From a virus, in IMG/VR virus record IMGVR_UViG_3300045453_000012, positions 1 through 25,782 of that record: a stretch of DNA of 25,782 nt; one strand, 5' to 3'. The notes under the pieces are model-generated. The model worked only from the letters and a program-made list of their open reading frames with translations. It was not told the DNA's origin and ran no database searches. The stretch's first letter is position 1. The number at the start of each line of letters is the position of its first letter. Both the position numbers and the translations under genes were made by a program. This document shows positions 921 through 19,588 of this stretch, in pieces.

Positions 921-996
921 GCCCCGATAGCTCAGCTGGTAGAGCACGTCATTCGTAATGATGGGGTCGGCGGTTCGATTCCGTCTCGGGGCACCA
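921..996 (+). tRNA. tRNA-Thr, anticodon CGT
   Basis: A full cloverleaf can be drawn. The 7-bp acceptor stem GCCCCGA (921-927) pairs with TCGGGGC (986-992). The anticodon stem CGTCA/TGATG encloses the loop TTCGTAA with anticodon CGT, which reads the ACG threonine codon. The T arm has the normal TTCGATT loop, the discriminator is A, and CCA is encoded (994-996). It is the host gene flanking the element and the probable integration target, because the integrase follows directly and tRNA 3' ends are the usual targets of P4-type integrases. Confidence 0.96.
961..996 (+). other. Putative attL core in the tRNA-Thr 3' half
   Basis: P4-type integrases usually recombine within the T-arm/3' end of a tRNA gene, leaving a duplicated 3' end at the far border. 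Here the integrase reads away from the tRNA, as expected for the left junction. I see no second copy of the tRNA 3' end in the window, so the right attachment site must lie beyond base 25782. Exact core limits cannot be set without it. Confidence 0.55.
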
Positions 997-1062: not shown

Positions 1063-1156
1063 CGTGCTCAGCGTGAGGAGGTTCAGCTCACCGCTTCTTA
1101 GAACAAACAGGGTAGAATACTGGGTAGGCACATTCACACCCAGGAGGCAGTTACCC

Positions 1157-2356
1157 ATGCCCCTTACGCAGTACCAGATCACCAACGCGAAGCCGCGCGA
1201 CAAACAGTACAAACTGTCGGACGGCGAGGGGCTGTATCTCTTCGTCCAGCCGAATGGCTCGAAGTGGTGGCGCTTCCGCTACTTCTTCGACAAGAAGGAA
1301 AAGATGCTCAGCGTAGGCACCTTCCCGGAGGTGACGCTGGCCGAAGCCCGCACGAAACGTGAGGACGCTCGCAAGCTCGTCTCGAAGGGCATTGATCCGT
1401 CAGCGCAGCGCAAGACCGACAAGATTGCCGCGTCAGTCGCGGCATCAAACACCTTCGGCGCGATCGCCAAGGAGCGGCTGAGGAAGTCCGAAGACGAGGG
1501 GGCGTCAGTAGCCACACTGAAGAAAAACAGGTGGCTCCTCGAAGACCTCGCTTCCCCGCTCGCCGGCCGCCCAATTACGGAGATCAAGCCCGCCGAAATC
1601 CTGCAGCTCTTGCAGTGCATCGAGCGCACGGGGCGACGCGAGACAGCGCATCGTTTGCGCGAGGTGATCGGGAGCGTCTTCCGCCTGGCTATCGTGACCA
1701 TGCGAGCAGAGACCGACCCAACGGCTCCGCTGAAGGGTGCTCTGCTGAAGCCGCAGGTCGCTCACCGCCCCGCGATCACGGACGAAGAGCAGTTGGGCGC
1801 CCTGTGGGCGAACCTCGCTCAGTACGACGGCTGGCCAACGCTAAAGTCGGCCATCCAGTTTCTCGCGTTGACCATGACACGGCCGATTGAGACCCGCCTC
1901 ATGCGCAAGCCCGAGGTGGACTTCAAAAAGGCAGTGTGGAGCATTCCAGCGGAGCGCATGAAGATGCGCCTGCCGCACGAAGTGCCGCTCTCCCGGCAGG
2001 CTGTGGCTGTCCTAGAGGGTGTTTGGGATCTGACGAGGGGCGAGCTGGTCTTCCCCTCGATCCGCTCTGTCCTGCGCCCTCTATCGGAGAACGCCATGAA
2101 CAGCGCACTTCGGCGAATGGGCTACACCACCGACGAGATGACGGCGCACGGCTTCCGAGCGTCTGCCAGCACCATCCTCAATGACCGAGGCTTCGACCGG
2201 GATGTGATCGAGGCGGCATTGGCTCACCAAGATCAAGATGAGGTTCGGCGCTCATACAATAGGGCTCGCTATTGGACCCAGCGCGTCGCTCTTATGCAAT
2301 CTTGGGCTGACTTACTTGATGGATTTCAAGGGGTTACAGCCCTCGAGGCCGCCTAG
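1157..2356 (+). CDS. int: P4-type tyrosine integrase (399 aa)
   Basis: This site-specific recombinase should insert and excise the element at tRNA-Thr. The ATG at 1157 is chosen because AGGAGG lies at 1142-1147 at ideal spacing; the longer frame from 1064 lacks a ribosome site. The N-terminal part (LTQYQITNAKPRDKQYKLSD, then GLYLFVQPNGSKWWRFRY) is the DUF4102 arm-binding domain typical of P4 integrases. The C-terminal catalytic domain has R242 (TMTRPIET), H331 and R334 (AHGFRASA), H357 (LAHQ) and nucleophile Y367 (SYNRARYW). About 400 residues is normal for the family. A weak TAGAAT at 1113-1118 could be its -10 box. It has its own terminator overlapping the stop codon, so it is expressed separately from downstream genes. 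Confidence 0.96.
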   Translation: MPLTQYQITNAKPRDKQYKLSDGEGLYLFVQPNGSKWWRFRYFFDKKEKMLSVGTFPEVTLAEARTKREDARKLVSKGIDPSAQRKTDKIAASVAASNTFGAIAKERLRKSEDEGASVATLKKNRWLLEDLASPLAGRPITEIKPAEILQLLQCIERTGRRETAHRLREVIGSVFRLAIVTMRAETDPTAPLKGALLKPQVAHRPAITDEEQLGALWANLAQYDGWPTLKSAIQFLALTMTRPIETRLMRKPEVDFKKAVWSIPAERMKMRLPHEVPLSRQAVAVLEGVWDLTRGELVFPSIRSVLRPLSENAMNSALRRMGYTTDEMTAHGFRASASTILNDRGFDRDVIEAALAHQDQDEVRRSYNRARYWTQRVALMQSWADLLDGFQGVTALEAA

Positions 2357-2373: not shown

Positions 2374-2446
2374 GAGCAGCTCTGAGTACATCCGGTAGTT
2401 GCAGCCCGACGCGGACGTGCTCTACGCTGCCTGTGCTCAATGGGCT

Positions 2447-2470
2447 AGTCACTCACTGGGTCACGTGACT
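2447..2470. promoter_or_regulatory. Palindromic operator candidate upstream of the HTH gene
   Basis: GTCACGTGAC (2460-2469) is a perfect 10-bp palindrome. AGTCAC (2447-2452) upstream pairs with GTGACT (2465-2470), giving overlapping inverted repeats. The site is 22 bases before the AlpA-like start, a suitable place for an autoregulatory or repressor site. The factor is unknown. Confidence 0.4.
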
Positions 2471-2491
2471 CTCAATCCGGGAGTTCACGCG

Positions 2492-2692
2492 ATGGATGAG
2501 GAATTGGTGCCGAAGAAGCAGGCTTGTCACAAGGTGGGGGTGAGCAGAGCGACTATCGACAGATGGCGGGGTCTACCTGATAAGCCCCCAGCGGTGAAGC
2601 AGGGAAATCGCGTCTACTATCGCAAGTCCGATCTGAACAACTACATCTCGGGACTACCTCCGACTCCGGGTCCGAGGCCACGCCACAAATGA
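2492..2692 (+). CDS. AlpA/excisionase-like helix-turn-helix protein (66 aa)
   Basis: This small DNA-binding protein fits the MerR/AlpA excisionase class. The chosen ATG is at 2492, with a GGGAG-type site about ten bases upstream; the longer frame from 2399 has no good start. Residues 8-24 (KKQACHKVGVSRATIDRW) form the helix-turn-helix, followed by a wing-like segment ending VYYRKSDLNNYI, the usual layout of this family. A C-terminal tail rich in Pro and Arg follows. Its position just after the integrase fits a recombination directionality factor or a regulator of the integrase. It is also the only HTH regulator I could recognise in the element so far. Confidence 0.8.
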   Translation: MDEELVPKKQACHKVGVSRATIDRWRGLPDKPPAVKQGNRVYYRKSDLNNYISGLPPTPGPRPRHK

Positions 2693-2753
2693 CTTCCCAG
2701 AGATGGGCTGGAAGGGCCGGGTAACTCCGGCTCTTCTTGCGGGGGGCGCAGAG

Positions 2754-3533
2754 ATGAACGCAGTCCAATATTTGCGCGTCGCGTACAAGGAGGTCGGGCA
2801 GGCTCGCGAATTTCTAAGGGACCTCCCGATCTCTATGAACTTGCTGCTGGAGGATCTCGAAGCGGCTGCCAAGAATGTCTCTATCGCTCGCGAGATGGAC
2901 GCATCCGCTAGTTTTACCGATGAGAGCGGCCTACTCCAGACGTGCGATACCCTAGCCGCGCGCATCATCGACTATGAGGCTCGCGCGTGGGAAATAAGCA
3001 TCATTAGCGACGAGCAGGCCAACTTCCGATCCAACATGGAATCCGGGGTTGCTGCCCCTTTGCAAATCAACAACGTGGTAAGACCTAGCACCATCCGCGA
3101 GAAATTGGAGCGGGTGAGCGTGCTCGCGGAGAAACTGTGCGAATATGAACCGTACAACTACCAACACTATTTCCAACTTGCTCACGCTCACAAACGGCTT
3201 CAACACACAAAAGAGGCGCTGCAAGCCGTCGAGCGTGGCTTGGCTGTCTTCCCCGACGAGGTGGAGCTGCTGAAATTCAAACGCGATCTTGAAGCCGCTC
3301 CGCCGCAGTCTCCGCCGACTGCTTTCCAGATGTGGCTCAAAGACAATCCGGACGCGCTGTTTAACATACTCGCCTTTGCCGCTCCCATTCTAATCTTCGG
3401 CGGCGCTATATGCTGGCTGATTCTCTGGGCGGCAACGTCCGAGTTTATCAATCTCGGGACGCTCGCCACCGCGCTCGGTGGAGGCGCATACTTCAAGTTC
3501 AGGCGTATGTGCAAGGATAGAGGTCTGCCGTGA
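2754..3533 (+). CDS. Membrane-anchored TPR-like protein, partner of the coupling ATPase (259 aa)
   Basis: I do not recognise a named family. The N-terminal half is helical. Around residues 135-180 the pattern YNYQHYFQLAHAHKRLQ and EALQAVERGLAVFPDEVELL looks like one to two TPR units. After a Pro-rich linker, one strong membrane helix lies at about residues 200-228 (ILAFAAPILIFGGAICWLIL), with a second weaker hydrophobic stretch and a basic tail. A single anchor with a large cytosolic domain is inferred. The start could also be ATG 2703; both have weak ribosome sites. The stop codon overlaps the GTG of the next gene (GTGA), so the two are translationally coupled and the products probably interact at the inner membrane. 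Confidence 0.65.
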   Translation: MNAVQYLRVAYKEVGQAREFLRDLPISMNLLLEDLEAAAKNVSIAREMDASASFTDESGLLQTCDTLAARIIDYEARAWEISIISDEQANFRSNMESGVAAPLQINNVVRPSTIREKLERVSVLAEKLCEYEPYNYQHYFQLAHAHKRLQHTKEALQAVERGLAVFPDEVELLKFKRDLEAAPPQSPPTAFQMWLKDNPDALFNILAFAAPILIFGGAICWLILWAATSEFINLGTLATALGGGAYFKFRRMCKDRGLP

Positions 3534-5614
3534 AGCCGAGCGACTTTCTCCCGCCTCGGCCCGCCTTCGATGTTCGCGGACGCTCCAACCGTATACACGA
3601 GCTATGGGAGCGCTATCCGCTTCGCGACGAGGCAGCCTGCCGCGCTTGGCATGAAGACATCTTCAAACAGCTCATACGCAGTCTGAGCAGACGACCGCAT
3701 GAGTCGGTGCTGGTGGGTTCTCTTACGCTCATGGAAGACCTCGCAGCCGACAACGGTGTGTTTCTCACGTCCTACCCGCATCACATCTCGCTCGATTTTA
3801 CGCGTGATCCACAACTAGAATTCTCGACCATCCGCGCCGATGGTTTCAAGGAGTTCGAGCTTGGAAGCTTCAAGCAGATGCTCGCGGAAATCGCCATGCT
3901 GCCCATACCGCCGACCTCGATTGGCACCGTCCCTCTCATAGACGTTCTCCCGGCGCCCAAGCAGCTGATCCAAAAGATAGTATCCGCAATGGTGAACACC
4001 GAGGTTGCCACGCGGCCGGGCTTCCATATCTTCAGGGCTACCCGAGAGAAGATCGTCACGAATTTCAAGACCGCCTCGGGACATCGTGCGGATGCCAACG
4101 TGACTATCGAGAAGATCGTCATGGTGCATGAGTCGCGCCTGTCCGGAACAGCACTGGTCGATGCCTACCTTGGGGGTACGCCGTGGGCTGACTTCCTAAA
4201 GTGTCCTATCCCCTTCGAGATACCGATGGCCCGACGCCTGGAACACACGGTCATCGTCGCTGGTGCGGGATGGGGCAAGACCGAACTCTTAAAGTCGATC
4301 ATTCTCACGGACCTCAAAAAGCCCAATCCTCCCGCCCTGATCGTGCTCGATTCCACGGGCGCAATGATCCGCGACATTCAACAGCTCGCCCTATTCAACG
4401 GGCCACTGAGGGATCGCCTTGTCATCATTGATCCTCAGCACTCGCCTGCGCTCAACATGTTTGACGTGGCGACGCCCCGTTTCCAGACGTACAGCGAAGA
4501 GCAACGCGAAGATGTACAGTCCGAAATCATCTCGCTGTTCAACTACATCTTTGCCACCGAAAGCTACGGGCTGACGGCGCGTATGGACACGGCGTTTTCC
4601 TACGCAGTGAAGCTCATCATGTCGATGCCGAGCGCCACCATTACTGACTTGCGGCAATTGCTCGAAGAACCTGCCGCAAAGGTTGGCGGCTACCAACACA
4701 GCGCTTTCAAGCACTACATCGACCAGCTCGACCAGGACGCTAGGGATTTCTTTGCAACACACTTTTATTCGCAGAGCCTTACCGGCACACGCCTTAATGT
4801 CGCACAGCGTCTTCACAAGGTTGTCGGCGTCCCGGCTTTCCGCCGCATGTTCACGGCAAGTACTAACGTCCTCGACCTCTACGCCGACATGCAGGCGGGC
4901 AAGATCATCCTCGTAAACACCAATCAGCAGCTTCTCAAAGAGGATTCGCACATCCTTTTCGGGCGCTACATCATCGCCCGAGCGCTCGCTGCCGCCTTTG
5001 AGCGTGCGACGCTATTGCCCGAGCAGCGCAATCCCGCCTTCCTCATAGTTGACGAGGCCGCGCCCTACTTCGATCAAACCTTCGAGTCTCTCTTGACGCG
5101 CGTCCGACAGTTTAAGCTCGGGGTCGTCATCGCGTTCCAGCATCTAGAGCAGGCAAACGAAAAGCTCAGATCGGCTATTGCTTCGAGCACCGCCGTGAAG
5201 TTCGGCGCGAATGTCGGCTTTCAAGATCGTCGCTGGCTTGCGCGTGAGATGGAGACAACGCCGGAATTCATCCAAGGACAGCGGCAACGGATCAATGACG
5301 ACGAAAAGTGGACGCAGTTTGCCGCCCATGTTCGTAACGTAACCCCACACGCCCATAGCGTCACCGTCGAGATCGGCTTATTTGACAAAGAGCCGAAGAT
5401 GACCGAGTTAGAGCACCTAGACCTCATCCGGCGGTGCATGGAGCGCGTTGCCTTCGCCCCGTCGCCTAGCCAGCAGGAGGATCACGCTGCCGACGTTATC
5501 CAACCTTCGCCACAGCCCAACTCGCAGTCGTCTCAACCCAAACGGCAACAGCCCCCCGCCGTCATTCAGCTTCCTCACCATAAGCAAGACGACGGCGAAG
5601 GCGGTTGGACATAG
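3530..5614 (+). CDS. VirD4/TraG-type coupling ATPase (694 aa)
   Basis: This large P-loop ATPase resembles the type IV coupling protein/HerA superfamily, whose members push DNA or nucleoprotein across membranes in conjugation. The Walker A motif is GAGWGKTE (residues 245-252), followed by a strand LIVLDSTG. The Walker B motif is FLIVDEAAPYF with D508-E509. A motif typical of coupling proteins follows (RQFKLGVVIAFQHLEQANEK). A C-terminal Pro/Gln-rich tail begins near residue 645. The GTG start at 3530 overlaps the preceding stop and has AGAGGT upstream. No membrane helix is visible in this protein itself; the upstream gene may supply the anchor. A chromosome- or plasmid-translocating HerA/FtsK role is the alternative. 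It is not a phage terminase, because a bona fide terminase lies at 12324. Confidence 0.8.
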   Translation: MKPSDFLPPRPAFDVRGRSNRIHELWERYPLRDEAACRAWHEDIFKQLIRSLSRRPHESVLVGSLTLMEDLAADNGVFLTSYPHHISLDFTRDPQLEFSTIRADGFKEFELGSFKQMLAEIAMLPIPPTSIGTVPLIDVLPAPKQLIQKIVSAMVNTEVATRPGFHIFRATREKIVTNFKTASGHRADANVTIEKIVMVHESRLSGTALVDAYLGGTPWADFLKCPIPFEIPMARRLEHTVIVAGAGWGKTELLKSIILTDLKKPNPPALIVLDSTGAMIRDIQQLALFNGPLRDRLVIIDPQHSPALNMFDVATPRFQTYSEEQREDVQSEIISLFNYIFATESYGLTARMDTAFSYAVKLIMSMPSATITDLRQLLEEPAAKVGGYQHSAFKHYIDQLDQDARDFFATHFYSQSLTGTRLNVAQRLHKVVGVPAFRRMFTASTNVLDLYADMQAGKIILVNTNQQLLKEDSHILFGRYIIARALAAAFERATLLPEQRNPAFLIVDEAAPYFDQTFESLLTRVRQFKLGVVIAFQHLEQANEKLRSAIASSTAVKFGANVGFQDRRWLAREMETTPEFIQGQRQRINDDEKWTQFAAHVRNVTPHAHSVTVEIGLFDKEPKMTELEHLDLIRRCMERVAFAPSPSQQEDHAADVIQPSPQPNSQSSQPKRQQPPAVIQLPHHKQDDGEGGWT

Positions 5615-5616
5615 GA

Positions 5617-5622
5617 TATAAT
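5617..5622 (+). promoter_or_regulatory. Perfect -10 box TATAAT, six bases before an ATG
   Basis: TATAAT at 5617-5622 is followed by exactly six bases and an ATG (5629), so transcription would be expected to begin at or near that ATG. No -35 box is visible at 16-18 bases. It lies just after the coupling-ATPase stop codon and could drive the downstream genes independently. Confidence 0.45.
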
Positions 5623-5628
5623 TGCCTC

Positions 5629-5715
5629 ATGGCTCCTCGTGAGCATATGGCGGTATTGATGCCGCTCGTTATTCCCTCAACCTCTTTGAATGGACGACAG
5701 GCTACGGCTCAATAG
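5629..5715 (+). CDS. Possible 28-aa leader peptide ahead of the replication-relaxation gene
   Basis: An ATG six bases after the TATAAT box opens a 28-codon frame (MAPREHMAVLMPLVIPSTSL, then eight more residues), ending at TAG 5715. It overlaps the start of the next gene in a different frame. There is no Shine-Dalgarno site, so it could be read only as a leaderless message. It may be a leader peptide, or chance. Evidence is limited to position and the promoter. Confidence 0.25.
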   Translation: MAPREHMAVLMPLVIPSTSLNGRQATAQ

Positions 5716-6787
5716 GTTCAGCTACGACCCCATCATCGACAAAGATGGCAAGGCGCTGGTAGCTCGCATCACGCCGCACGACGAGAAGCGCTTCATTGCC
5801 ATTTCACCGTACGACTATCTCACGGCTGACTATTGGGCGGGACTGACAGGCGGCAAGGAAGATGCCGTTACAAACCGGCAAAATCTCCTGAAGCGCACTC
5901 CCAATCGCTGGGTCGATATTGCCGCGCCGCAGCTCGAGGATCAGTTCACCTACAAAAGCAGCTTCCTCGCATATACCAATTCAGCGCGCGCTAAAAAGTG
6001 GCTCGAAGACCACTGCCGGGCTCTCCCATCCCACGGCTGCACCGGCCCCTTCATTCACCGGCTCATGGCCGGCTGGATGCGAGCATCGTTCGACATCGCC
6101 GTAGAGCAGGAGCGTGTGAACGCCACCATCATCCCCTTCCATGAAATCATTAAGAGCGACAACACGCCGGAAGCGACTAGAAACGAGCGCACCGACGACC
6201 GCCACGACCACCGACATCAGATCCCTGTCACGTTCGACGGAAAGACGCGCCGCATCACGCCCGACGCCTTCCCCTTCGCAGTACGCGACAGCCAGGGCAA
6301 GCACTCGCTGATCTTTCTCGAAGCCGATTGCGACAGCGAAAGCATCGACACTCCCAACGGCCTCGATTTGAAGTTGAAGCAGTATCTCGAAGCCTTCCGC
6401 CGCCGCGACGGGGAGCACGACACGCGCCCGATATTCCGGCAGCGCTACGGCTTCCGGCAGGCGTATGTCGTCTTTGGCACACCAGGCCGTATCCACCTTG
6501 AAAACGTGATGGCGCACCTGGTCGAACTCACCAAAGACACTCCGAAGCTTCGCGAGCACTTCCTGTTCACCGAGCACCCGTCTCTAAAGTCGAAGAACCG
6601 ACCGTCAGCTACCGGCCACATGCTCACCAACCCGTACAGACGTGCAGGCCTACCCGATTTCAGTCTTCTAACCGGAGAAGAGGTGCCAAATGGACATCGA
6701 GAAATTAAAGGCCCTGATCGCAAGACGAGAGCAAATCGACGCCGAGATACGGGAGGCAGTAGGGGAGAAGAAGGAGCGCGCATCTAA
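5690..6787 (+). CDS. Replication-relaxation family protein (relaxosome-type, 365 aa)
   Basis: This resembles the Replic_Relax family of plasmid and conjugative-element proteins linked to relaxosome formation and replication. The N-terminal part contains a winged-helix-like segment (FIAISPYDYLTADYWAGLTG, residues about 35-55, then RQNLLKR). A HRLMAGWM stretch follows. The C-terminal half has a nuclease-like pattern: PD at residues 191-192 (ITPDAFPFAV), E211-x-D213 (IFLEADCD) and K228/K230-x-Y (LDLKLKQYLEAF). In-frame stops at 5657 and 5687 force the ATG at 5690, which has no Shine-Dalgarno site; CCTCAACCTC precedes it instead. The last 30 residues are basic and overlap the next gene, so the functional protein may end near residue 333. 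Adjacent to the coupling ATPase, it suggests a mobilisation module. Confidence 0.72.
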   Translation: MDDRLRLNRFSYDPIIDKDGKALVARITPHDEKRFIAISPYDYLTADYWAGLTGGKEDAVTNRQNLLKRTPNRWVDIAAPQLEDQFTYKSSFLAYTNSARAKKWLEDHCRALPSHGCTGPFIHRLMAGWMRASFDIAVEQERVNATIIPFHEIIKSDNTPEATRNERTDDRHDHRHQIPVTFDGKTRRITPDAFPFAVRDSQGKHSLIFLEADCDSESIDTPNGLDLKLKQYLEAFRRRDGEHDTRPIFRQRYGFRQAYVVFGTPGRIHLENVMAHLVELTKDTPKLREHFLFTEHPSLKSKNRPSATGHMLTNPYRRAGLPDFSLLTGEEVPNGHREIKGPDRKTRANRRRDTGGSRGEEGARI

Positions 6788-6854
6788 GAAGTGCTCCATC
6801 TGCCAAAGCGAAGAACACACGGCGCGTACATGCCCGCAGCGGCAGCAGCAGTAG
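6690..6854 (+). CDS. 54-aa coiled-coil protein with a CCHC zinc knuckle
   Basis: The ATG at 6690 has a good ribosome site (GAGAAGAGG, about seven bases upstream) and starts inside the 3' end of the preceding gene in another frame, overlapping it by 98 bases. Residues 1-30 are a charged helix (MDIEKLKALIARREQIDAEI). Residues 35-48 are CSICQSEEHTARTC, a perfect C-x2-C-x4-H-x4-C zinc knuckle, the motif of retroviral nucleocapsids and other single-stranded nucleic-acid binders. A short Gln-rich tail ends the protein just before a strong terminator. It was missed by simple frame calling because of its size. I infer a nucleic-acid-binding partner of the coupling/relaxation pair; the exact role is unknown. 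Confidence 0.7.
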   Translation: MDIEKLKALIARREQIDAEIREAVGEKKERASKKCSICQSEEHTARTCPQRQQQ

Positions 6855-6863: not shown

Positions 6864-6899
6864 AAAGGCGACCAGAGGGAGGGGCTGGTCGCCTTTCTT
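6864..6899. terminator. Strong bidirectional intrinsic terminator
   Basis: AAAGGCGACCAG (6864-6875) pairs perfectly over 12 bp with CTGGTCGCCTTT (6885-6896), with loop AGGGAGGGG. The plus strand continues TTTCTT. The minus strand reads into TTTTT from the A-run at 6862-6866. It separates the coupling operon from the convergent minus-strand gene at 6942-7157. Confidence 0.9.
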
Positions 6900-6941
6900 A
6901 CGCTTTACGCTTACGCCACGCTCGGGGGAACTGGTGAACTG

Positions 6942-7157
6942 CTACTTCTGGTCGGCGATCCAGGCTTCCGCCCGCTCGGCCACCTTGGCTACGTTGAGGA
7001 GGTCGCCGTGGGAGAACGAATCGCCGTCCTTCCACTCGTCGCCGTCCTTGTACGCCCGGGTGATCGAGGTGTTGAAGAAGTTGTCGTTCTTCCACACGGT
7101 CGCCGTAACGAAGCCCACGCGAAACTTGGCAGCGGGCTGGTTGCTGGCCTTGGCCAT
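6942..7157 (-). CDS. Conserved small element protein (71 aa)
   Basis: The minus-strand ATG (7155-7157) has GAGG about four bases upstream, and the gene runs into the bidirectional terminator at 6864-6899. The protein begins MAKASNQPAAKFRVGFVTAT and includes the aromatic WKNDNFFNTSITRAYKDGDE and an acidic C-terminal helix (LLNVAKVAERAEAWIADQ). I recall very similar 70-residue proteins of unknown function on plasmids and prophages of Alphaproteobacteria. The N-terminal half looks like a small beta barrel or sheet. A nucleic-acid-related role is possible but unproven. It is transcribed opposite to its neighbours. Confidence 0.75.
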   Translation of the reverse strand: MAKASNQPAAKFRVGFVTATVWKNDNFFNTSITRAYKDGDEWKDGDSFSHGDLLNVAKVAERAEAWIADQK

Positions 7158-7264
7158 GCTTCCTCTTTCTCCCGCCTCTCAGTCGTGGGCGGGATTCGAT
7201 GCTGTCTTAGACCCAGCACCGTGTCCCGCGCGCGACCTACTCATGAGCAGCACTGAGCACATCA

Positions 7265-7281
7265 TACCATGGCGGATGGTA
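7265..7281. promoter_or_regulatory. Inverted repeat in the divergent intergenic region
   Basis: TACCAT (7265-7270) and ATGGTA (7276-7281) flank the spacer GGCGG. The site lies between the divergent genes at 7157 (minus) and 7321 (plus), where an operator controlling either would be expected. The 163-base gap contains nothing else I can name. Confidence 0.3.
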
Positions 7282-7320
7282 CGATTAGGGGCAGGCTCAT
7301 TCACAGTGGAGAGACCTGCT

Positions 7321-7953
7321 ATGCCATCAATCGACTTCGCAGCCGTGAAGGCTGCCGTGTCCATCGAGGACGCCAAGGACTATCTCGGCTTGAAAATGAA
7401 ACGGGAAGGCGACGCTTTCCGCTCCCCTTGCCCGACGTGTGGCAAGGGCGGCGACCGCGCTCTCGTCATCACACCCGCTAGATCGGCGTTCTACTGCTTC
7501 TCGGTGAAGCGGGGAGGAGATTGCATAGCCCTCGTCGCCCACATTAAGGGGTGTTCGCAACGTGAAGCGGCGACCGAGTTGCAAGAGCGCTTCATCGGCA
7601 ACGCGCCCAAGCGTATCGAGACGCGCCCGACCGAGACCGACGAGCTACAGCCGCTCGATCATCTCTCGGCCGACCATCCGGCGATCGACGCCCTCGGGCT
7701 GTCCGTCGCTGCCTGCGAAGCACTCGGTATCGGCTACGCGGCGAAGGGAATGATGCGAGGACGTGTGGCTTTTCCACTGCGGCTGCCCGACGGGACGCTA
7801 GTGGGCTACGCGGGTCTCGCCACATCGGGAGACCAGGCCCCGCTGATGCTCCTGCCGAGCAACCTGGACGAACGTATCGCCGCTCCTCCGAAGCAGGAGA
7901 TCGCCGACGACAAGGTGGTGGACTTCAAGAAGTTCTATCGCAACGCATCGTGA
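7321..7953 (+). CDS. CHC2-type primase-like protein lacking a TOPRIM domain (210 aa)
   Basis: The N-terminal part is a DnaG-type zinc-binding domain: SIEDAKDYLGLKMKREGDAF, then CPTCGKGGDRAL and FYCFSVKRGGDCIALV. Cysteines are at residues 37, 40, 59 and 68. The usual fourth ligand in CFxC is replaced by Val, and Cys68 is shifted. The middle region (AIDALGLSVAACEALGIGYA, then KGMMRGRVAFPLRLPDGTLV) resembles the start of the primase catalytic core, but the TOPRIM metal site is absent; primases are normally much longer. The start at 7321 has GGAGAG upstream. It may recognise or load at a replication origin, or be a primase accessory. Similar short proteins occur in other alphaproteobacterial phages to my recollection. 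Confidence 0.7.
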   Translation: MPSIDFAAVKAAVSIEDAKDYLGLKMKREGDAFRSPCPTCGKGGDRALVITPARSAFYCFSVKRGGDCIALVAHIKGCSQREAATELQERFIGNAPKRIETRPTETDELQPLDHLSADHPAIDALGLSVAACEALGIGYAAKGMMRGRVAFPLRLPDGTLVGYAGLATSGDQAPLMLLPSNLDERIAAPPKQEIADDKVVDFKKFYRNAS

Positions 7954-9785: not shown

Positions 9786-10103
9786 ATGGCTACGCCGGAA
9801 GGCGAAATCGTCAACGCAATCTGCGAATACCTGGCGCTAAAGAAGCGCTTCTTCTATCGCAACAACAACACCCCGATCTTTGACCCGACGCGCAAGGCGT
9901 TCCGGTCCATGCCCAAGTACACGATGCGGGGCATTCCCGACATCATCTGCGTTAAGGATGGGCGCTACATCGGCATTGAGGTAAAGACTGACAAGGGACG
10001 GCTGTCGGAGCATCAGCATGAGTTTGCCAGGAGCCTCATGTTGGCGGGAGGGGATTACGTCATCGCGCGCAGCATTGAAGATGTGCAGCGAGTTGGACTT
10101 TAG
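9786..10103 (+). CDS. VRR-NUC domain nuclease (105 aa)
   Basis: This is a stand-alone VRR-NUC protein of the PD-(D/E)XK nuclease superfamily, a type common in phages and related to Holliday-junction or structure-specific nucleases. The catalytic pattern is clear: E5, GIPD with D52, IEVK with E65 and K67, and Q77 (KGRLSEHQHEFARSL). Length is normal for the single-domain form. The ATG begins one base after the tRNA, so the gene has almost no leader once the tRNA is released. The only ribosome-like sequence (GAGGA) is inside the tRNA acceptor strand. The gene converges with the minus-strand gene ending seven bases away. A role in recombination or packaging of element DNA is likely. Confidence 0.88.
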   Translation: MATPEGEIVNAICEYLALKKRFFYRNNNTPIFDPTRKAFRSMPKYTMRGIPDIICVKDGRYIGIEVKTDKGRLSEHQHEFARSLMLAGGDYVIARSIEDVQRVGL

Positions 10104-11184: not shown

Positions 11185-11202
11185 GGCTGCCTCCCCAAGT
11201 GG

Positions 11203-11229
11203 CAATGCACCCTAGCATTGCACGCAATG
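11203..11229. promoter_or_regulatory. Three CAATGC-type half sites between divergent genes
   Basis: CAATGC (11203-11208), its inverse GCATTG (11215-11220) and GCAATG (11224-11229) sit in the 62-base gap between the secreted protein gene (minus) and the gene at 11247 (plus). The first two form an inverted repeat around ACCCTA. They overlap the expected promoter positions on both strands, so a shared regulator is plausible. Confidence 0.35.
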
Positions 11230-11782: not shown

Positions 11783-12409
11783 ATGGTGACGAAGCGGGCG
11801 AAGCAAGACAAGGGACAGGAGGCGGAAGCGCTGAAAGCCAAGCGCGAACTGTTCTGCCGCTACTACACCCAGAACCAAGAGCTATTTGGCAATGCCACGC
11901 TCTCGTATGCCGAGGCCTTCGACTACAAGCTCGATGAGCTGTCCCGAGAAGGCGTCTACGAGGAGATCGAAAGCGAGGATGGCACCATCGAACAGGGGAA
12001 GCTGTTAGAACCGAGCGAATACGACAAGGCCTATCACACATGTTCCGTCCTGTCGTCACGCCTGTTGAGAAACGCTGACATCCAGGCTCGCATCACCGCC
12101 CTGTTGAATGAGCTGTTGAAGGACAACATCGTAGACAGTCAGCTTGCCAAGCTCATAACGCAGGACAGCGACAACACGGCCAAGATCGCCGGCATTCGCG
12201 AATACAACAAACTCCGCGGACGCATCATCGACAAGACGCAGAACGTGGACCGTCTGCCTTTCGGTGAGACCGACTTATCAGCCGTGATCGCGGCGCTCCC
12301 GCAGGAGCGTCAAGACTACTACTATGGCGTCATCCGTGAACTTGTCGCAGAAGCCGAGCTTTCAAGAAGCGCTGGCTCGGGTCAAAGCGGCGGCACTGGG
12401 CAAGCCTGA
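11783..12409 (+). CDS. terS: Small terminase subunit (208 aa)
   Basis: The small subunit recognises phage DNA and regulates the large subunit. The sequence shows the expected features: an N-terminal basic helix, RELFCRYYTQNQELFGNATL with SYAEAF (the F-x-x-x-Y-x...N-x-T-x-A-x-x-A-type helix-turn-helix found in TerS), then LLRNADIQARITALLNEL and a long helix ending in REYNKLRGRIIDK, which is typical before the C-terminus. The gene lies directly upstream of the large terminase gene, which it overlaps. The ATG lacks a Shine-Dalgarno site and follows a TACAAT box by eight bases. Ser/Gly-rich C-terminal residues (SRSAGSGQSGGTG) overlap the next start. Confidence 0.82.
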   Translation: MVTKRAKQDKGQEAEALKAKRELFCRYYTQNQELFGNATLSYAEAFDYKLDELSREGVYEEIESEDGTIEQGKLLEPSEYDKAYHTCSVLSSRLLRNADIQARITALLNELLKDNIVDSQLAKLITQDSDNTAKIAGIREYNKLRGRIIDKTQNVDRLPFGETDLSAVIAALPQERQDYYYGVIRELVAEAELSRSAGSGQSGGTGQA

Positions 12410-13958
12410 AGACATCCGCAGGAACTACGGCGCCAAGCCCATTTCCTTGCTCCAATACATCGACCCCTCAATGCGCTTCCCAAAGAAGCTGCGTCTGATC
12501 TTCGCGCTCATATGGCTGCGCCAGGACCAGCAAGGGAGGCCGGCAACCCGCTTCATCATCAAGGGGCCGCGCGGCGGCGGTAAGTCCAAGATCCTCGGCG
12601 CGCTCGGCTTCGTGAAGTGGTTCCTGCAATGCCTCAGCATCGTGGATATGGGCGGCTCCCTGCAGCAGGCGCAGGGCGTCTACAACTACTTCGTTGGGCA
12701 TATCTACGCGCAGCCTTCCATCGTCAACGCGCTCCCAGACGAGCCCACGATGAAGGAGACTAAGAGCGACAAGGGCAACTACTTCAAGGCGGTGGCCGCC
12801 TCCCCGAAAGCGGTGCGTGGCCCGCACCCGGACAACCTCTTCATAGACGAGGCATGCGAGACCAAGGACCAGCTCATCCTCGACGCCATGCCGATGGTGA
12901 ACACGTCGTCCCACTCGCTCGTGGTGATGACCTCCACCTTCCACAAGATCTTTGGCTACTTCCAGGAGACGTGGGACCGGGCAGACGATCTGGGTTGGGT
13001 ACGGCTCTCATGGGATAGCTTTGATGTCTGCAAGCAGTTCGACCCGGCCATCTGGGATGACCCGGAACTCAACCGGCAGATACCCGACCTTGCAAAGCTG
13101 AAGGCGCGCGCCGCCGGCCGCACGGGCGATCCCGAGGGCTGGATACCCGTCGAGAACCTGATCCAGGCTTGGCGCGAGCGAGCGAGCGACGACTACTTCG
13201 ACGTTGAGTACATGGGCTCCCGCCCGTCCGCCGAAGGCATGGTCAATGATCCCGAGGACGTGGAGGCCTGCGTCATCGACGAGCTGGGCGAGTACGCCTA
13301 CATCCCCGGCGCTGACGTCGCCGGCGGCTTGGACTGGGGCTTCTCCGGGCAGACTTCATGGGTGGCGCTCATGGCGCATAAGGACAACGTGAAGGTCCAG
13401 CTCAGCAACCGGCTGTACACGCAGGTGCGCAGCCAGGTCATTATCGAGGACATCGTGCAGGACGTGCTCGCCTACCGCATTTCGGTCATCCATGCCGATG
13501 CGTCCCATGGCTTCGAGAACCAAGCGCTGCGCGACGCCATAAAGAAGGCGATTAACGAGCTGCCCGAGGCAAACCAGTTTAGGTGCGCCGTCGTCGAAGT
13601 GCCGTTTGGTCGGCCGGTGCAGGTGGCGGCCAAAGAGGAGAAGGGGGCGAAGAAGGAGGTATCAAAGAACCTCGGCACCGAGAAGGAAGTCATGCTCGGC
13701 AACTACCGCGCCTATTTCCAGCGCCGCCTCATGCGCATCCTGCGCTCCGACCGCGTCGCCATTTGGCAGCACAAGCGCTACCGCTACCAGAAGAACAGCG
13801 ACAAGCCCGTGAAGGAAGACGACCACGTGCCGGATTCGACCATGCTTTGCCTGCGCCGCTGGATGCTGGGCAAGACAGTCGCGTCACTGTCCGACAAGGA
13901 GGAGCCGACCGCCCGCACGTCCACAGTCACAGGGGGCTTGATGGATATGCAGTTTTAG
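12324..13958 (+). CDS. terL: Large terminase subunit (544 aa)
   Basis: This ATP-driven motor and nuclease packages phage DNA into the prohead. The ATPase domain has Walker A KGPRGGGKSK (K87) and Walker B LFIDEACE (D175-E176). The RNase H-like nuclease has GLDWGF (D337) and a further acidic strand VIHADASHGFENQALRD. A third acidic region (KEDDHVPDSTMLCLRRW) fits the final nuclease motif. Size is normal. The ATG at 12324 lies inside the small subunit gene (86-base overlap) and has no nearby ribosome site, so coupled translation is likely; a GTG at 12336 is an alternative. It starts the morphogenesis block. Confidence 0.92.
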   Translation: MASSVNLSQKPSFQEALARVKAAALGKPEDIRRNYGAKPISLLQYIDPSMRFPKKLRLIFALIWLRQDQQGRPATRFIIKGPRGGGKSKILGALGFVKWFLQCLSIVDMGGSLQQAQGVYNYFVGHIYAQPSIVNALPDEPTMKETKSDKGNYFKAVAASPKAVRGPHPDNLFIDEACETKDQLILDAMPMVNTSSHSLVVMTSTFHKIFGYFQETWDRADDLGWVRLSWDSFDVCKQFDPAIWDDPELNRQIPDLAKLKARAAGRTGDPEGWIPVENLIQAWRERASDDYFDVEYMGSRPSAEGMVNDPEDVEACVIDELGEYAYIPGADVAGGLDWGFSGQTSWVALMAHKDNVKVQLSNRLYTQVRSQVIIEDIVQDVLAYRISVIHADASHGFENQALRDAIKKAINELPEANQFRCAVVEVPFGRPVQVAAKEEKGAKKEVSKNLGTEKEVMLGNYRAYFQRRLMRILRSDRVAIWQHKRYRYQKNSDKPVKEDDHVPDSTMLCLRRWMLGKTVASLSDKEEPTARTSTVTGGLMDMQF

Positions 13959-13977: not shown

Positions 13978-16140
13978 ATGGAATTTCTCGGCGTCCACAT
14001 CGGACGCGCAGCAAAAGCCGCTGAGCCGAAGCCGAAGCGCGGCTTGGAGATTGGCGACAGCGGCACCCACATTCTCGACGGTTTCATTAACGAGGAATAC
14101 AACACCGAACTCGCCGGCATCAAAGCGTTCGCCAAGTATGACGAGATGCGCAAGTCGGACTCGACGGTTCGCGCCGCCGAACTCATGGTGCGCCTGCCGA
14201 TCCAGGCAGCGGAGTGGTACGTAAAGCCCGCGAGCGAGGAAGAAGCGGATAAGCGCATTGCGGAGTTTGTGCAGGCCGCGCTCTTCGAGCTGCACGACCT
14301 CTCGTTTGAAGACTTCCTGAGACAGGCACTCCTCTCGCTGCCCTATGGCGTGATGGCGTTCGAGAAGGTCTTCACGACACGCCAAGTAGAGGGGCAGACG
14401 CGCATCGTGTGGGAACGGCTTGCTCCTCGTCTGCCGAGCTCAATTCAGAAGTGGGCTATCGGCGACGCGAAGCTCGGCATCACGCAGCTCCGCTCAGACG
14501 GTAAGGTGGTCGAAATCCCGATGGAGAAGCTAATCGTGTTCGTGCATGAGCGCGAAGGCGACAACTGGAACGGCACCTCGATGTTCCGAGCCGCCTACAA
14601 GCACTGGTTCATGAAGAACGTGTTCTACAAGATCGACGCCATTGCGTTCGAGCGTCAAGGTCTTGGCATTCCCGATGGTCAGTTGCCCGAGGGCTATAGC
14701 GAGCGCGACCGCGCGAAGATGGAGTCGATCCTGAAGAACATGCGGGCGAATTCGCAGGCGTATCTCATCCGCCCCAAGGACTACGAGATTGCCTTCATGG
14801 ACATGAAGGCAAACACGACGCGCGACCCGCAGAACTCCATCAACCACCATGACAGGCAAATCATGAAAGCGGTGCTCGCCCAGTTTCTCGAGCTGGGCGC
14901 TGCCTCACAGGGCGCAAGCGGCAGCCGCGCCGTGTCGGAAGATCACTCGCGACTCTTCCTCCAGGCTGTTGAGGCCGAAGCCCGAGCGTTTGCCACCGCC
15001 GTCAACAAGCAACTCATCAAGCAGCTCGTGGATCTCAATTTCAACAACGTGGAGAAGTACCCGCACCTCGACTTCGAAGGCATTACGAAGGAGGACGTTG
15101 CCGAGCTTTCCGAGACCTACGCAAACCTCATCAAGGCCGGAGGCATGACGCCGCAGGATGCTGACGAGGCGGCTTTCCGCGAGAAGATGGGTCTGCCCGA
15201 GCTGGACGAGAGCGGTGTCCGGGAGAAGCCTGCCAATGACAATGAACTGCCCGACGATGAGAGACAGGAAGCCAGGGAGCCGAGGCTAAAAAAAAACTTC
15301 TCGGAGCCGCCTAAGCCGTTCCGCAAGCTGACGTTTGCCGAGCAGAAGGTCAACTTTCAAGCACTGAACGATAAGATGGACGAGCTGGAGGCCCAGTTCG
15401 ACCAGGTCACGAAGAAGCTCCTGCACGAAGCGCGCGACACCTACATGGCCGCGCTCACGCAAGCTGCCCATGCGGGCGATACCAAGGCCATCAAGGAGGC
15501 GACGCTCAAAGTCCAGTCCGACTATGCTCGGATCATTAAGGGGGCGATCAAGTCGGCGTTTGAATACGGGAAGAACAATGCAGCCAAGGAGATCGGCGTG
15601 GATGCACCGGCCAACCCGGCCGAGATGCTCCGGCAGATCGACATCCAATCAGATGCCATCGCGGACGCTCAGATTGCTCGGATCACGACGGATAGCAAGA
15701 ACGCCTATGTGCAAACCCTCAACAAGGGACTCTCGCTCACTGCCGCTCTTGGCGCGGCGGATGCTGCGGCAGCCGCTGCCATCGACCAGCTCACGAGCGA
15801 CGCAAGCGCCATCCTAGTCGCGGGCTACATCAACCATGGCCGCGATACTGTGTTCGAGAAGAGTGCAAAGGACATCTATGCGCTGCAGCGGTCAGAAATT
15901 CTCGACGCGCGCACCTGCCCCTACTGCCTGTCGGTAGATGCTCGTGTGATCGAAAGGGACGACCCATTCGGCCGCAACACCATCTTCCACTCAAACTGCC
16001 GAGGCATCTGGGTCGCCATTCTCCAGGACGAGGCGGAGAAGCCGAAGATCGGCGGGATTCCGCAGTCTGTCCGCGATAGATTCGGAGACACAGTGAACGA
16101 TCTCATCCAGCCGAAGAAGCCGACGCCCAAGAAGCGTTAG
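13978..16140 (+). CDS. Portal protein fused to a MuF-type minor head protein (720 aa)
   Basis: Residues 1-430 are a DUF935 portal (Mu gp29 family): RAAELMVRLPIQAAEWYVKP, SLPYGVMAFEKVF, NWNGTSMFRAAYKHWFMKNV and IRPKDYEIAFMDMKANTT. Residues about 445-720 end in a MuF/SPP1 gp7 domain with the zinc-type signature RTCPYC (C647, C650) and FHSNCRG (H671, C674). The portal is the head vertex through which DNA enters; MuF proteins are low-copy head proteins. In Mu they are separate genes, so this is a fusion. A nine-A run lies exactly at the junction. The ATG has no ribosome site and follows an extended -10 element. The stop overlaps that of the convergent gene. Confidence 0.92.
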   Translation: MEFLGVHIGRAAKAAEPKPKRGLEIGDSGTHILDGFINEEYNTELAGIKAFAKYDEMRKSDSTVRAAELMVRLPIQAAEWYVKPASEEEADKRIAEFVQAALFELHDLSFEDFLRQALLSLPYGVMAFEKVFTTRQVEGQTRIVWERLAPRLPSSIQKWAIGDAKLGITQLRSDGKVVEIPMEKLIVFVHEREGDNWNGTSMFRAAYKHWFMKNVFYKIDAIAFERQGLGIPDGQLPEGYSERDRAKMESILKNMRANSQAYLIRPKDYEIAFMDMKANTTRDPQNSINHHDRQIMKAVLAQFLELGAASQGASGSRAVSEDHSRLFLQAVEAEARAFATAVNKQLIKQLVDLNFNNVEKYPHLDFEGITKEDVAELSETYANLIKAGGMTPQDADEAAFREKMGLPELDESGVREKPANDNELPDDERQEAREPRLKKNFSEPPKPFRKLTFAEQKVNFQALNDKMDELEAQFDQVTKKLLHEARDTYMAALTQAAHAGDTKAIKEATLKVQSDYARIIKGAIKSAFEYGKNNAAKEIGVDAPANPAEMLRQIDIQSDAIADAQIARITTDSKNAYVQTLNKGLSLTAALGAADAAAAAAIDQLTSDASAILVAGYINHGRDTVFEKSAKDIYALQRSEILDARTCPYCLSVDARVIERDDPFGRNTIFHSNCRGIWVAILQDEAEKPKIGGIPQSVRDRFGDTVNDLIQPKKPTPKKR
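15288..15296 (+). promoter_or_regulatory. A9 slippage run at the portal/MuF junction
   Basis: In frame the run reads CTA AAA AAA AAC TTC. A -1 slip leads after five more sense codons to TAA (15312-15314); a +1 slip leads to TGA (15329-15331). Either would yield a portal of about 445-450 residues without the MuF domain. Runs of eight or nine A are known to promote transcriptional slippage, and A AAA AAC is a recognised ribosomal slippery heptamer. Confidence 0.5.
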
Positions 16141-16934: not shown

Positions 16935-17006
16935 TGCTCCCCCGGCGAAGTGCTGCTTATCCCCACGCGCACCGGGCACGGCGACATATAGCACAATCAT
17001 GGGCTG

Positions 17007-17012
17007 TATGAT
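17007..17012 (+). promoter_or_regulatory. -10 box before the protease/scaffold gene
   Basis: TATGAT (17007-17012, five of six consensus bases) is followed by six bases and the ATG at 17019. It restarts transcription of the head operon after the inserted minus-strand gene. The opposite strand of the same gap carries TTATCA and TATATG at 18-base spacing, a possible promoter for the cyclase-like gene. Confidence 0.4.
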
Positions 17013-17018
17013 AAACAC

Positions 17019-18236
17019 ATGAGCAAGGAACGTGATAGCAAAAAGCGAATCGCGTTTCCTATTCAGCTCTTCGACGAAGGGTCGGCTTCAGTCGAGATAC
17101 CGAGTGAAATCCATGTCGTCCCCGTGGGGGAGTGGGACCACTCGCTATACGGCCACATGAAGATCGACGCGGCCGCCATCCAGCAGTTCATCGCGAACTA
17201 CGAGGCAGGCATCCGCAAGGATCTCCGTGTCACGGCCGGCCACGACAACGGCATGAGCGGAGGCGAGCTGCCCGCTCTCGGCTGGTTCAAGAAGCTCTAC
17301 GCCAAGGAGGATGGCCTCTGGGCGCAGATGGAGTGGACCCCGGATGGAGAGGAGGCGATCAAGAACCGATCGTACAAGTACTTCTCCCCCGAAATGTTCC
17401 TTAACGGCGACCTGGCGTACGAGGACCCGGAGACGCACAACATCTACAACTACGTGTTGGATGGCGGCGCGCTCACCAACTTCCCGTATTTCAAGGAGCT
17501 GAATGCGGTCGTGAAGTTCAGCGATCCGCATCTTATGAATAAATTCAATAACGATATGCAATTGAAGGACATCCTCGCCAAGAAGCCGTCAGAGCTTTCT
17601 GAAGCGGAAAAGACCTTCCTCCGTGAGCACAAGGGCGAGCTGTCGTCGGAGCAGACCGCCACGTTTAGCAGCGTGTTCGAGGAACCGGCACCGGTCGAAA
17701 CGGTTGATGAGCCGGAACAGCCCAAGGCGCCGGAGACACCGGAAGAGCCGAAGGTCAGCGCCTCGGAGAAGAACAAAGTCGTCGTTTCCTCGGCGGAGTT
17801 TTCTGCTCTCCAGCAGATGGCGAACAAGGGCGCTGAAGCCCTGAAGAAGATCGAGGCGACCGAGCGCAAGGCGAAGATCGACAAACTCGTCTTCTCGGCC
17901 ACCAACACGGCCGGCCGCTTCCTTCCGAAGCACCAGAGCGCTCTCGAAGCGTTCATGGTCCAGCTATCTGAAAAGCAGCAGGGGGAATTCGTCGCTCTCA
18001 TCGGTGACATGCCGACCGCCAACACCAAGCAGCTCTTTGACGAGCTCGGTGACGGCGGCAAGAACCTCAACAGTGCCGCAGGCATCTACAGCGAGATCAA
18101 GAACCTCGCGGACGCGAAGGTCACGGCATCGCAGGGCAAGCTCTCCTTCTCGGATGCGCTCCGCCAGGTCTACAGCGAGAAGCCGGAGTTGAAGACTTCT
18201 TATGAGTCGGCGCTCGCCGCGGAGGGCAAGAATTAG
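17019..18236 (+). CDS. Mu gpI-like head maturation protease/scaffold (405 aa)
   Basis: The N-terminal 170 residues match the Mu-like prophage I protease: VPVGEWDHSLYGHMKID, DLRVTAGHDNGMSGGELPAL, GWFKKLYAKEDGLWAQMEWT and SYKYFSPEMFLNGD. This domain cleaves the scaffold and itself in the prohead. The C-terminal half is acidic, with a Glu/Pro-rich linker at about residues 225-250 (EEPAPVETVDEPEQPKAPET) and helical scaffold-like segments, as in Mu where gpI contains the scaffold gpZ. Position directly before the decoration and capsid genes fits. The ATG has no ribosome site and follows TATGAT by six bases. Capsid proteins probably are its substrates. Confidence 0.88.
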   Translation: MSKERDSKKRIAFPIQLFDEGSASVEIPSEIHVVPVGEWDHSLYGHMKIDAAAIQQFIANYEAGIRKDLRVTAGHDNGMSGGELPALGWFKKLYAKEDGLWAQMEWTPDGEEAIKNRSYKYFSPEMFLNGDLAYEDPETHNIYNYVLDGGALTNFPYFKELNAVVKFSDPHLMNKFNNDMQLKDILAKKPSELSEAEKTFLREHKGELSSEQTATFSSVFEEPAPVETVDEPEQPKAPETPEEPKVSASEKNKVVVSSAEFSALQQMANKGAEALKKIEATERKAKIDKLVFSATNTAGRFLPKHQSALEAFMVQLSEKQQGEFVALIGDMPTANTKQLFDELGDGGKNLNSAAGIYSEIKNLADAKVTASQGKLSFSDALRQVYSEKPELKTSYESALAAEGKN

Positions 18237-18256
18237 AACGTAATCTCTCAACATCT

Positions 18257-18637
18257 ATGAGCACAGAAAACATCGCGCTCGTCCGTTCCAAGGAAGCTGG
18301 AGAAGCAATGACGGACAAGCAGCACTACATCGTCCAGCTCACCGCGGCTGGTCTCATCGAAGTGGCGGAAGCCGCCACGGATCTCATCGTGGGTGTCCTT
18401 CAGAACACTCCGGCCGCAGGCGAACAGGCAACGTACGCTTTCGGCGGCGTAGCCAAGGTCAAGGCGGGCGGCACCATTGCCGTTGGCGCGTGGGTCACCT
18501 CGGACAGCAACGGCAAGGCCGTAGCGACGACCACGGACGGCGACATCGTGATTGGCCGATATGTCGGCACCGCGGCTGCGGCAGACGGCGATCTCATCGA
18601 AGTGCAGCTTGGTATTCAGCACCTCTACATCGCGTAG
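18257..18637 (+). CDS. Capsid decoration protein, DUF2190-like (126 aa)
   Basis: The sequence is a small beta-rich, Gly/Ala-rich protein: IVQLTAAGLIEVAEAATDLI, VGVLQNTPAAGEQATYAFGG, VAKVKAGGTIAVGAWVTSD and IVIGRYVGTAAAADGDLIEV. This pattern is typical of DUF2190/head-decoration proteins that sit on the capsid surface, and the gene lies between protease and major capsid genes, where they normally occur. There is no Shine-Dalgarno site: the 20 bases before ATG are TAATCTCTCAACATCT-like, with T at -1. Good confidence on role. Confidence 0.8.
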   Translation: MSTENIALVRSKEAGEAMTDKQHYIVQLTAAGLIEVAEAATDLIVGVLQNTPAAGEQATYAFGGVAKVKAGGTIAVGAWVTSDSNGKAVATTTDGDIVIGRYVGTAAAADGDLIEVQLGIQHLYIA

Positions 18638-18661
18638 TCTTATCCATTCATCCCAATTCTT

Positions 18662-19588
18662 ATGTCAAACCGTTACCAAGGCACTGATCCGATCCTCACA
18701 GACGTGTCGCTCGGGTACAAGAATTCTGCCTACATTGCCGACCTTCTGCTTCCCACGCTGAGCGTGAAGCACCAGAGCGGCAAGCACTTCGTCTACGACA
18801 AGGGCATGTTCCGCTCGGAAGATGCCAAGCGCGGTCCGGGTGCTCGTTCCAAGGAGGTCACGCACAACATCAGCACGGGGCTTACGTACTTCTGCGAGGA
18901 TCACGCCCTCAAGGAATTCGTCGCTGATGAAGACGTGGACAACGCACCGGCAGGTGTGGACCCGTACGTCGATGCCACGGAGAACGTGACGGAAAAGCTC
19001 ATCGTCTCCAAGGAGATCGAAGCCGCGTCTATTCTGCTCAACACCAGCACCATTACCCAGAACACGACGCTCTCGGGTACCAGCCAGTGGTCGGACCCGA
19101 ACTCCGATCCGGTTGCGGCGGTTCGCACCGCCAAGCAGACGGTCCGCGACAGCATCATGATCGACCCGAACACCCTCATGCTTTCGAAGAAGGTGTTCGA
19201 CAAGCTCGTGGATCACCCGGCTATCGTCGAGCGCGTCAAGTACTCGCAGCTCGGGGTGCTCAACACCGATCTTCTCGCTCGCTTCTTTGACGTCGAGCGC
19301 GTCATCATCGGCGCGGCTCAAAAGAACGGCTCTGTCGAAGGCCAGTCGGATTCCATGTCCGACATCTGGGGCAAGGATGCGCTTCTCGCCTACATCAACC
19401 CGCGCCTCGGGCAGAAGACGGTCTCTCTCGGCGTCACCTACCAGTGGAAGTCCCGTACCACGGAGCGCCTCAACGGCACCGACGAGCGCGATCGCCGCGG
19501 CCAGTTCATCCGCGTCGGCGATCACTACTACGATCAGGAATTGATCGCGGCAGGCGCGGCCTACCTCTTCAAGGCGGCAGTCGCTTAA
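18662..19588 (+). CDS. Major capsid protein (308 aa)
   Basis: Length, position after protease and decoration genes, and composition identify the major capsid protein. The N-terminal region DPILTDVSLGYKNSAYIADL with LPTLSV is like the start of many HK97-fold capsid proteins in this group. The middle (RGPGARSKEVTHNISTGLTY, then EDHALKEFVADED) and the C-terminal segment (ALLAYINPRLGQKTVSLGVT, ending in RVGDHYYDQELIAAGAAYLF) fit the A-domain and E-loop layout. I cannot prove the fold without a profile search. No ribosome site: CATCCCAATTCTT precedes ATG. A 15-bp hairpin follows the stop. Confidence 0.85.
   Translation: MSNRYQGTDPILTDVSLGYKNSAYIADLLLPTLSVKHQSGKHFVYDKGMFRSEDAKRGPGARSKEVTHNISTGLTYFCEDHALKEFVADEDVDNAPAGVDPYVDATENVTEKLIVSKEIEAASILLNTSTITQNTTLSGTSQWSDPNSDPVAAVRTAKQTVRDSIMIDPNTLMLSKKVFDKLVDHPAIVERVKYSQLGVLNTDLLARFFDVERVIIGAAQKNGSVEGQSDSMSDIWGKDALLAYINPRLGQKTVSLGVTYQWKSRTTERLNGTDERDRRGQFIRVGDHYYDQELIAAGAAYLFKAAVA

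Follow-up and report, generated by a model that had tools for sequence, protein, structure and literature searches.

The window analyzed here, that is, the whole stretch of 25.8 kb corresponding to positions 1-25,782 of virus record IMGVR_UViG_3300045453_000012, begins with a flank of 73% G+C lying before a tRNA-Thr gene, as compared to approximately 58% in the element beyond. The features recognized are the following:

921..996, + strand: tRNA-Thr (CGT) gene
1064..2356, + strand: tyrosine integrase (Pfam Arm-DNA-bind_3, Phage_int_M and Phage_integrase)
2399..2692, + strand: small helix-turn-helix protein, AlpA-like (HTH_17 just under the cut-off; homologue in locus L010)
2703..3533, + strand: TPR protein with a C-terminal membrane hairpin (TPR_14 at 20.3 bits, which is under the Pfam cut-off; hydrophobic stretch beginning at residue 222)
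3530..5614, + strand: VirD4/TrwB-like ATPase, putative coupling protein (TrwB_AAD_bind, AF2 fold match, Walker motifs)
5690..6787, + strand: Replic_Relax/MOBC-like (relaxase-like) protein (PF13814 via relatives, AF2 model, PD...ExD motif)
6690..6854, + strand: zinc-knuckle protein of 54 aa, overlapping the relaxase-like gene in another frame (zf-CCHC 18.5 bits)
6864..6896, + strand: intrinsic-terminator-like hairpin closing the operon (12-bp perfect inverted repeat followed by TTTCTT; folding z = -3.0)
6934..7953, + strand: CHC2 zinc-finger primase-like protein (Zn_ribbon_DnaG; 3' of the module in related phages by synteny)
11783..13958, + strand: overlapping terminase small and large subunits
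13978..16140, + strand: Mu-type portal with C-terminal head-morphogenesis similarity (Portal_Mu 196.7 bits; phrog_113, phrog_241)
17019..19588, + strand: phage head genes, namely Mu-like protease, cement protein and major capsid protein

From the order of tRNA gene and integrase, the tRNA-Thr gene is the probable integration site of the element. The small helix-turn-helix protein is a probable excisionase. A Mu gp36-like protein is also encoded in the window, and the real start of the primase-like gene is probably near 7318. Outside the operon, a tRNA-Met (CAT) gene is found within the phage at 9713-9785, directly upstream of the gene for a small VRR-NUC protein (9786-10103) that is kept in several relatives. 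A convergent ORF of 71 aa (MAKASNQPAAKFRVGFVTATVWKND...; 6942-7157, - strand), situated between the terminator and the primase gene, reads like a genuine gene, and two - strand ORFs amid the phage gene order (10111-11205 and 16137-17018) are possible cargo genes; none of the three has a Pfam match.

The four ORFs at 2703-6854, all on the + strand and with the terminator hairpin downstream, agree with the operon proposed in a first-pass annotation of this DNA, which comprised a TPR-like membrane protein, a VirD4/TraG-type ATPase, a replication-relaxation protein and a zinc-knuckle protein. The end given there, 6854, is retained, whereas the start at 2754 corresponds to an internal ATG (M18) of a gene beginning at 2703. 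The coupling described for the first two genes was likewise found, the GTG start of the ATPase overlapping the stop of the TPR gene as GTGA. Taken alone, the zinc knuckle scores under the Pfam cut-off; it is very probably a genuine gene of the operon, because a homologue directly follows the same two genes, for the ATPase and the relaxase-like protein, in Rhodoplanes elegans (locus L071). As had also been claimed, type IV channel genes are absent, since no match to VirB4 or TrbL/VirB6 (profiles PF03135 and PF04610) was obtained in the window, nor in seven related phage records.

The ATPase scores 23.7 bits with TrwB_AAD_bind, above the Pfam cut-off of 20.5, and carries a Walker A (GAGWGKT) and a Walker B (FLIVDE) motif, both present in all 28 rows of the alignment. 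TrwB-like coupling proteins are RecA-like NTPases with an all-alpha insertion, and for the AF2 model of the ATPase (pLDDT 78.6) TrwB is the best fold match (Z 26.8 over 344 residues, rmsd 3.8), other matches being DotL (Z 24.9), VirB4 and DndH (about 25) and the HerA proteins of defence and repair (17-21). Assignment to a non-transfer family, which the first-pass annotation had named among the outcomes refuting its reading, is thus not what was found. The predicted fold places the ATPase in the conjugative-type branch, function not being fixed by fold alone. A packaging or terminase ATPase was also considered and rejected, because a separate terminase is encoded by the phage and TrwB is the fold that matches. 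An N-terminal transmembrane domain is usual in VirD4/TrwB coupling proteins, yet not universal; in the window ATPase, residues 1-150 contain no transmembrane segment, and a hairpin is found instead in the upstream co-encoded protein. Because the ATPase has no such segment of its own, and this family of loci includes many relatives that likewise lack the domain and have their anchor in another protein, the label of putative coupling protein is applied to the ATPase domain only, in the sense that it works like one. PADLOC returned a weak mad8 match (47 bits) and only 13 bits for HerA, with no defence system in the window and no match for the partner proteins of the ATPase. A known HerA-nuclease defence system was accordingly discarded, as PADLOC recognized no effector; TrwB also fits better than HerA.

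The label of replication-relaxation protein given earlier to the third product has no direct Pfam match behind it and is backed by its relatives: the window protein alone matches no Pfam family and the orthologue in L008 reaches 22.8 bits with PF13814, under the cut-off of 25.3, but 27 out of 30 aligned relatives match this family. The protein encoded beside the coupling protein of pTEF1, a plasmid typed as MOBC, also matches PF13814 over the cut-off (28.5 bits). In published surveys, PF13814 is taken to be the MobC relaxase family (PMC5357655), and a review of T4SS nomenclature describes MOBC as restriction-endonuclease-like, its members including TraX of pAD1 and MobC of CloDF13 (PMC12857230). 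In the AF2 model (pLDDT 87.9), an N-terminal MarR-like winged helix (residues 26-110, Z 7.8) is followed by a domain with a conserved PD...ExD motif (D192, E211 and D213), of which D192 is kept in all the phages compared, while L010 has Q at the E211 position and L098 shows altered residues. Winged-helix matches dominate the fold search with this model, the restriction enzyme SdaI being only a weak row (E 0.6), and SdaI itself carries a winged helix. Compared with TraX of pTEF1 alone, the relaxase-like profile gives a weak result (hhalign E 0.07). Based on its relatives, the protein is a probable member of the PF13814 Replic_Relax/MOBC relaxase type and a putative nicking enzyme. The search for oriT-like inverted repeats suggested in the first-pass annotation identified no oriT, as the repeats near the module differ among the phages and none is shared.

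We propose that the TPR protein, which has one clear C-terminal hydrophobic segment starting at residue 222, serves as membrane anchor of the ATPase. It occupies the slot of a small partner gene in related modules; this small partner protein or domain is absent from the window in all frames searched, and the TPR protein has no homologue among the fetched loci, an independent TPR protein with C-terminal transmembrane segments occupying the same slot in L016. In a Rhodobacterales group the ATPase carries an N-terminal transmembrane segment and the partner (approximately 119 aa) has none; in a sphingomonad/rhizobial group it is the partner (approximately 171-206 aa) that has a transmembrane hairpin, the ATPase being without such a segment. 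Comparison by hhalign shows the two partner families to be homologous (96%, E 1.8e-9), and L106 and L071 carry the partner domain as a fusion with several transmembrane segments. A putative anchor is present in either the ATPase or its partner for most ATPases shorter than 800 aa, the clear exceptions in the tally being L008, L010, L018 and L096. In MobB of CloDF13, the transmembrane domain is essential for mobilization (PMC7431656). Several small partners encoded before the ATPase (L008, L009, L010, L014, L017 and L106) terminate in a conserved (T)FEL/FEI sequence, by which they may dock to the ATPase.

The retention of the module was assessed among relatives with 55-81% TerL identity, including six integrase-bearing records in addition to the window and two integrase-less ones (G008 and G009). 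The ATPase and the relaxase-like gene lie between integrase and primase in all seven integrase-bearing phages and are missing from both integrase-less records, G008 being maybe incomplete. This association of seven against two is drawn from a small number of records, of which one may be a fragment, and it says 'temperate' rather than 'transfer'. A chance or remnant insertion, the other outcome named in the first-pass annotation as refuting its reading, is ruled out by the occupation of the same slot in every sampled integrase-bearing relative. Since the complete-looking relative G003 (46.5 kb) encodes head-tail adaptor, minor tail, tape-measure and endolysin-like proteins, the lineage is a real tailed phage. 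Mean identity among the seven phages is 32% for the ATPase and 29% for the relaxase-like protein, as compared to 38% for the primase, 65% for the capsid protein and 75% for TerL; the slot is retained, whereas what it contains diverges or is exchanged, like the rest of the early region, and as this region is mosaic overall the module is not exceptional in its divergence. In the ATPase tree, the window pairs with L008, beside L009, L010 and the short contig L013, and L012, L096, L098 and L106 stand on long branches of uncertain placement. That allele identities do not track TerL would also be expected of a parasitic or neutral module, derived for instance from IMEs of the same integrase type and exchanged by recombination beside the integrase with no benefit to the phage, and the Rhodoplanes locus, in which these three genes accompany a related integrase and phage genes are not recognized, fits such a source, the three being those for the ATPase, the relaxase-like protein and the zinc knuckle; nevertheless, reading frames and Walker motifs are intact in each of the seven phages, which, together with the complete retention, argues for selection, and we consider this explanation very unlikely.

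Module relatives were recovered by an alignment-based scan, single-sequence scans of the collections having found nothing. They comprise 5 loci in viral and 80 in genomic records, the majority being alphaproteobacterial. The usual layout is small partner gene, ATPase, relaxase-like gene, the last being located directly 3' of at least 46 of the 55 ATPases shorter than 800 aa, or about 50 when L044, L069, L071 and L084 are included. An integrase or serine recombinase is encoded within approximately 10 kb in 26 of the 47 loci with full flanks, and the pair is also found on small plasmids and genomic islands. The neighborhood survey called for in the first-pass annotation shows a pair recurring in phages, small plasmids and islands, often beside integrases. 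Among 26 genomes carrying the relaxase-like gene, VirB4 is never encoded within 90 kb on the same contig, and 15 of them have VirB4 elsewhere. Four further observations were made on these loci. The Rhodoplanes elegans locus, an integrated element, encodes both ATPases, a relaxase-like protein and a zinc knuckle in addition to a related integrase, and is possibly a non-phage cousin of the window module. In phage G007, a second, short TraG/TraD-like ATPase of 412 aa is encoded at the other end of the phage (L113, 1621-2859), and many chromosomal islands have a similar one near the long ATPase, frequently accompanied by a serine recombinase; two different coupling-like ATPases thus travel together. 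Microcystis phage Mwe-JY31 (L006, 22 kb), a phage by record name, has a ParA-like gene along with the same pair and may be a plasmid. Finally, ATPases of approximately 900 aa form a class (L019-L041, for example 9404-12304 of L036) devoid of transmembrane segments, with a C-terminal extension that matches no Pfam family and in which a nuclease-like motif (VDV...CEIS) is seen by eye; possibly, these are coupling ATPases fused to their nuclease.

The longer ATPases, none of which (0/24) is followed by a relaxase-like gene, bear on a possible role in superinfection exclusion or defence, in which a membrane-anchored DNA pump and a restriction-enzyme-like partner would attack incoming DNA in the lysogen, as in HerA-nuclease systems. 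Their nuclease-core-like extra domain is consistent with such a role, and so are the mad8 match, the highly divergent alleles in one slot, the sharing of the ATPase superfamily with HerA-Sir2, HerA-DUF4297 and DndH, and the presence of the module only alongside an integrase, which a lysogen function predicts. HerA-nuclease systems (Sir2-HerA, HerA-DUF4297) and mad8 of MADS indeed resemble the window in combining a related hexameric-type ATPase with an effector partner; they differ in that the model scores lower with HerA than with TrwB and that no Sir2, DUF4297 or MADS partner is found, the partner being instead of the Replic_Relax type and assigned via its relatives to the PF13814 relaxase family. 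As the same pair also occurs on small plasmids and next to integrases, and its partner proteins have no PADLOC match, we regard a defence role as unlikely. Another reading is a plasmid-like one, with the relaxase-like protein starting or resolving replication once the phage is excised, and with segregation or positioning of the phage as the task of the ATPase. The phages have integrases, however, no par genes were recognized near the module, two integrase-less phages manage without it, and the coupling-protein fold is more specific than this function requires; these points outweigh, in our view, the adjoining primase gene in the window and its relatives, the plasmids on which related pairs accompany RepA and ParA/MipZ genes and the derivation of the Pfam name of PF13814 from plasmid replication, and we judge this reading unlikely too, ranking it after defence. 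Exclusion and partition, along with DNA entry, had been put forward in the first-pass annotation as reuses of the operon, and any of these may still apply.

Modules that combine a coupling ATPase with a relaxase let plasmids move through the conjugation machine of another element. The mobB/mobC genes of CloDF13, a MOBC1 mobilizable plasmid, resemble the window in that the element supplies its own coupling protein with a relaxase-type gene behind it, a MOBC relaxase in CloDF13, and has no T4SS, although CloDF13 is a plasmid and not a phage, and MobB has its own transmembrane domain whereas here a hairpin resides in a separate TPR protein. The order coupling ATPase-relaxase is the same in pTEF1 and, from our ORF reading, in CloDF13; no direct sequence match to CloDF13 was detectable, its mobC consisting of broken pieces in the public record. 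Likewise, class 8 of the streptococcal IMEs pairs VirD4 with PF13814/MobC, in a compact block of VirD4, PF13814 relaxase, excisionase and integrase to which the window, with its MOBC-like protein and probable excisionase, compares, but with a serine integrase, in Firmicutes and with no phage morphogenesis genes (PMC5357655). Among phages, gp17-gp18 of the Tyrovirus group (Bacillus temperate phages Thrax1-5) represents a published precedent, as a type IV secretion protein adjoins a replication-relaxation protein, a pair viewed as plasmid-derived (PMC9703825). The likeness is by published description; the Tyrovirus pair was acquired by part of the group only and with a ParM locus, in contrast to the window module, which occurs in all sampled integrase-bearing relatives and adjoins the integrase. 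Among P1-like elements, just two phage-plasmids possess a relaxase or oriT, features that do occur in plasmids derived from such elements (PMC10879196). The parts, and the pair itself from the tyroviruses, are thus already known; relative to the open-access literature, what is new is the lineage-wide retention beside the integrase in this clade and the exchangeable anchor, and earlier reports may exist.

Based on the TrwB-like fold, the 27 of 30 relatives matching PF13814 and the occurrence of the same pair on plasmids and islands, the claim that this pair is of conjugative or mobilization type is upheld. The window contains an integrase and a relaxase-like gene in the absence of a mating channel, the combination by which a mobilizable element or prophage is recognized. 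An ICE with its own channel was rejected, given that neither VirB4 nor TrbL is found in the phages and no VirB4 near the chromosomal copies. The proposal of a phage/ICE hybrid made in the first-pass annotation holds in so far as a conjugation-type pair resides in a real tailed phage; without channel genes, the element is rather the phage counterpart of a mobilizable element of IME or CloDF13 type. We therefore favor, with a probability of roughly 0.55, the hypothesis that the operon is a CloDF13-like or class-8-IME-like mobilization module (MOBC relaxase and VirD4-type coupling protein) kept by temperate tailed phages and acting on the excised prophage via a co-resident type IV channel. We infer that, after excision, the relaxase-like protein would bind a phage oriT through its winged helix, its presumed restriction-enzyme-like domain then making the nick. 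Tethered to the inner membrane by the TPR/hairpin protein, the ATPase would take the relaxosome and pump the strand to the type IV channel of a co-resident conjugative element, and the integrase would re-integrate the transferred DNA in the recipient. Counting against the mobilization module are the absence of an identified oriT, the lack of a direct Pfam match, the weak TraX comparison, the motif drift in L010 and L098 and the chromosomal copies, which never lie beside T4SS genes; moreover, we know of no helper element for the host of this phage.

The presence of a conjugative-type module points, short of proof, to a second route by which the phage may spread while dormant. More tentatively, and at somewhat less than even odds, these may be fully equipped temperate tailed phages with two transmission routes by design, virions on the one hand and conjugation via a borrowed channel on the other, the latter relying on a coupling protein with an exchangeable anchor in the form of a TPR hairpin, a multi-TM protein or a small two-TM protein. 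The results point to a coupling-protein family with detachable membrane anchors, and to a clade of phages with head, tail and lysis genes that keeps a mobilization-type module in one slot. If working, this module would allow the prophage to spread with neither lysis nor receptors and beyond the host range of the virion, and relaxase-based surveys of mobility should then cover integrated phages.
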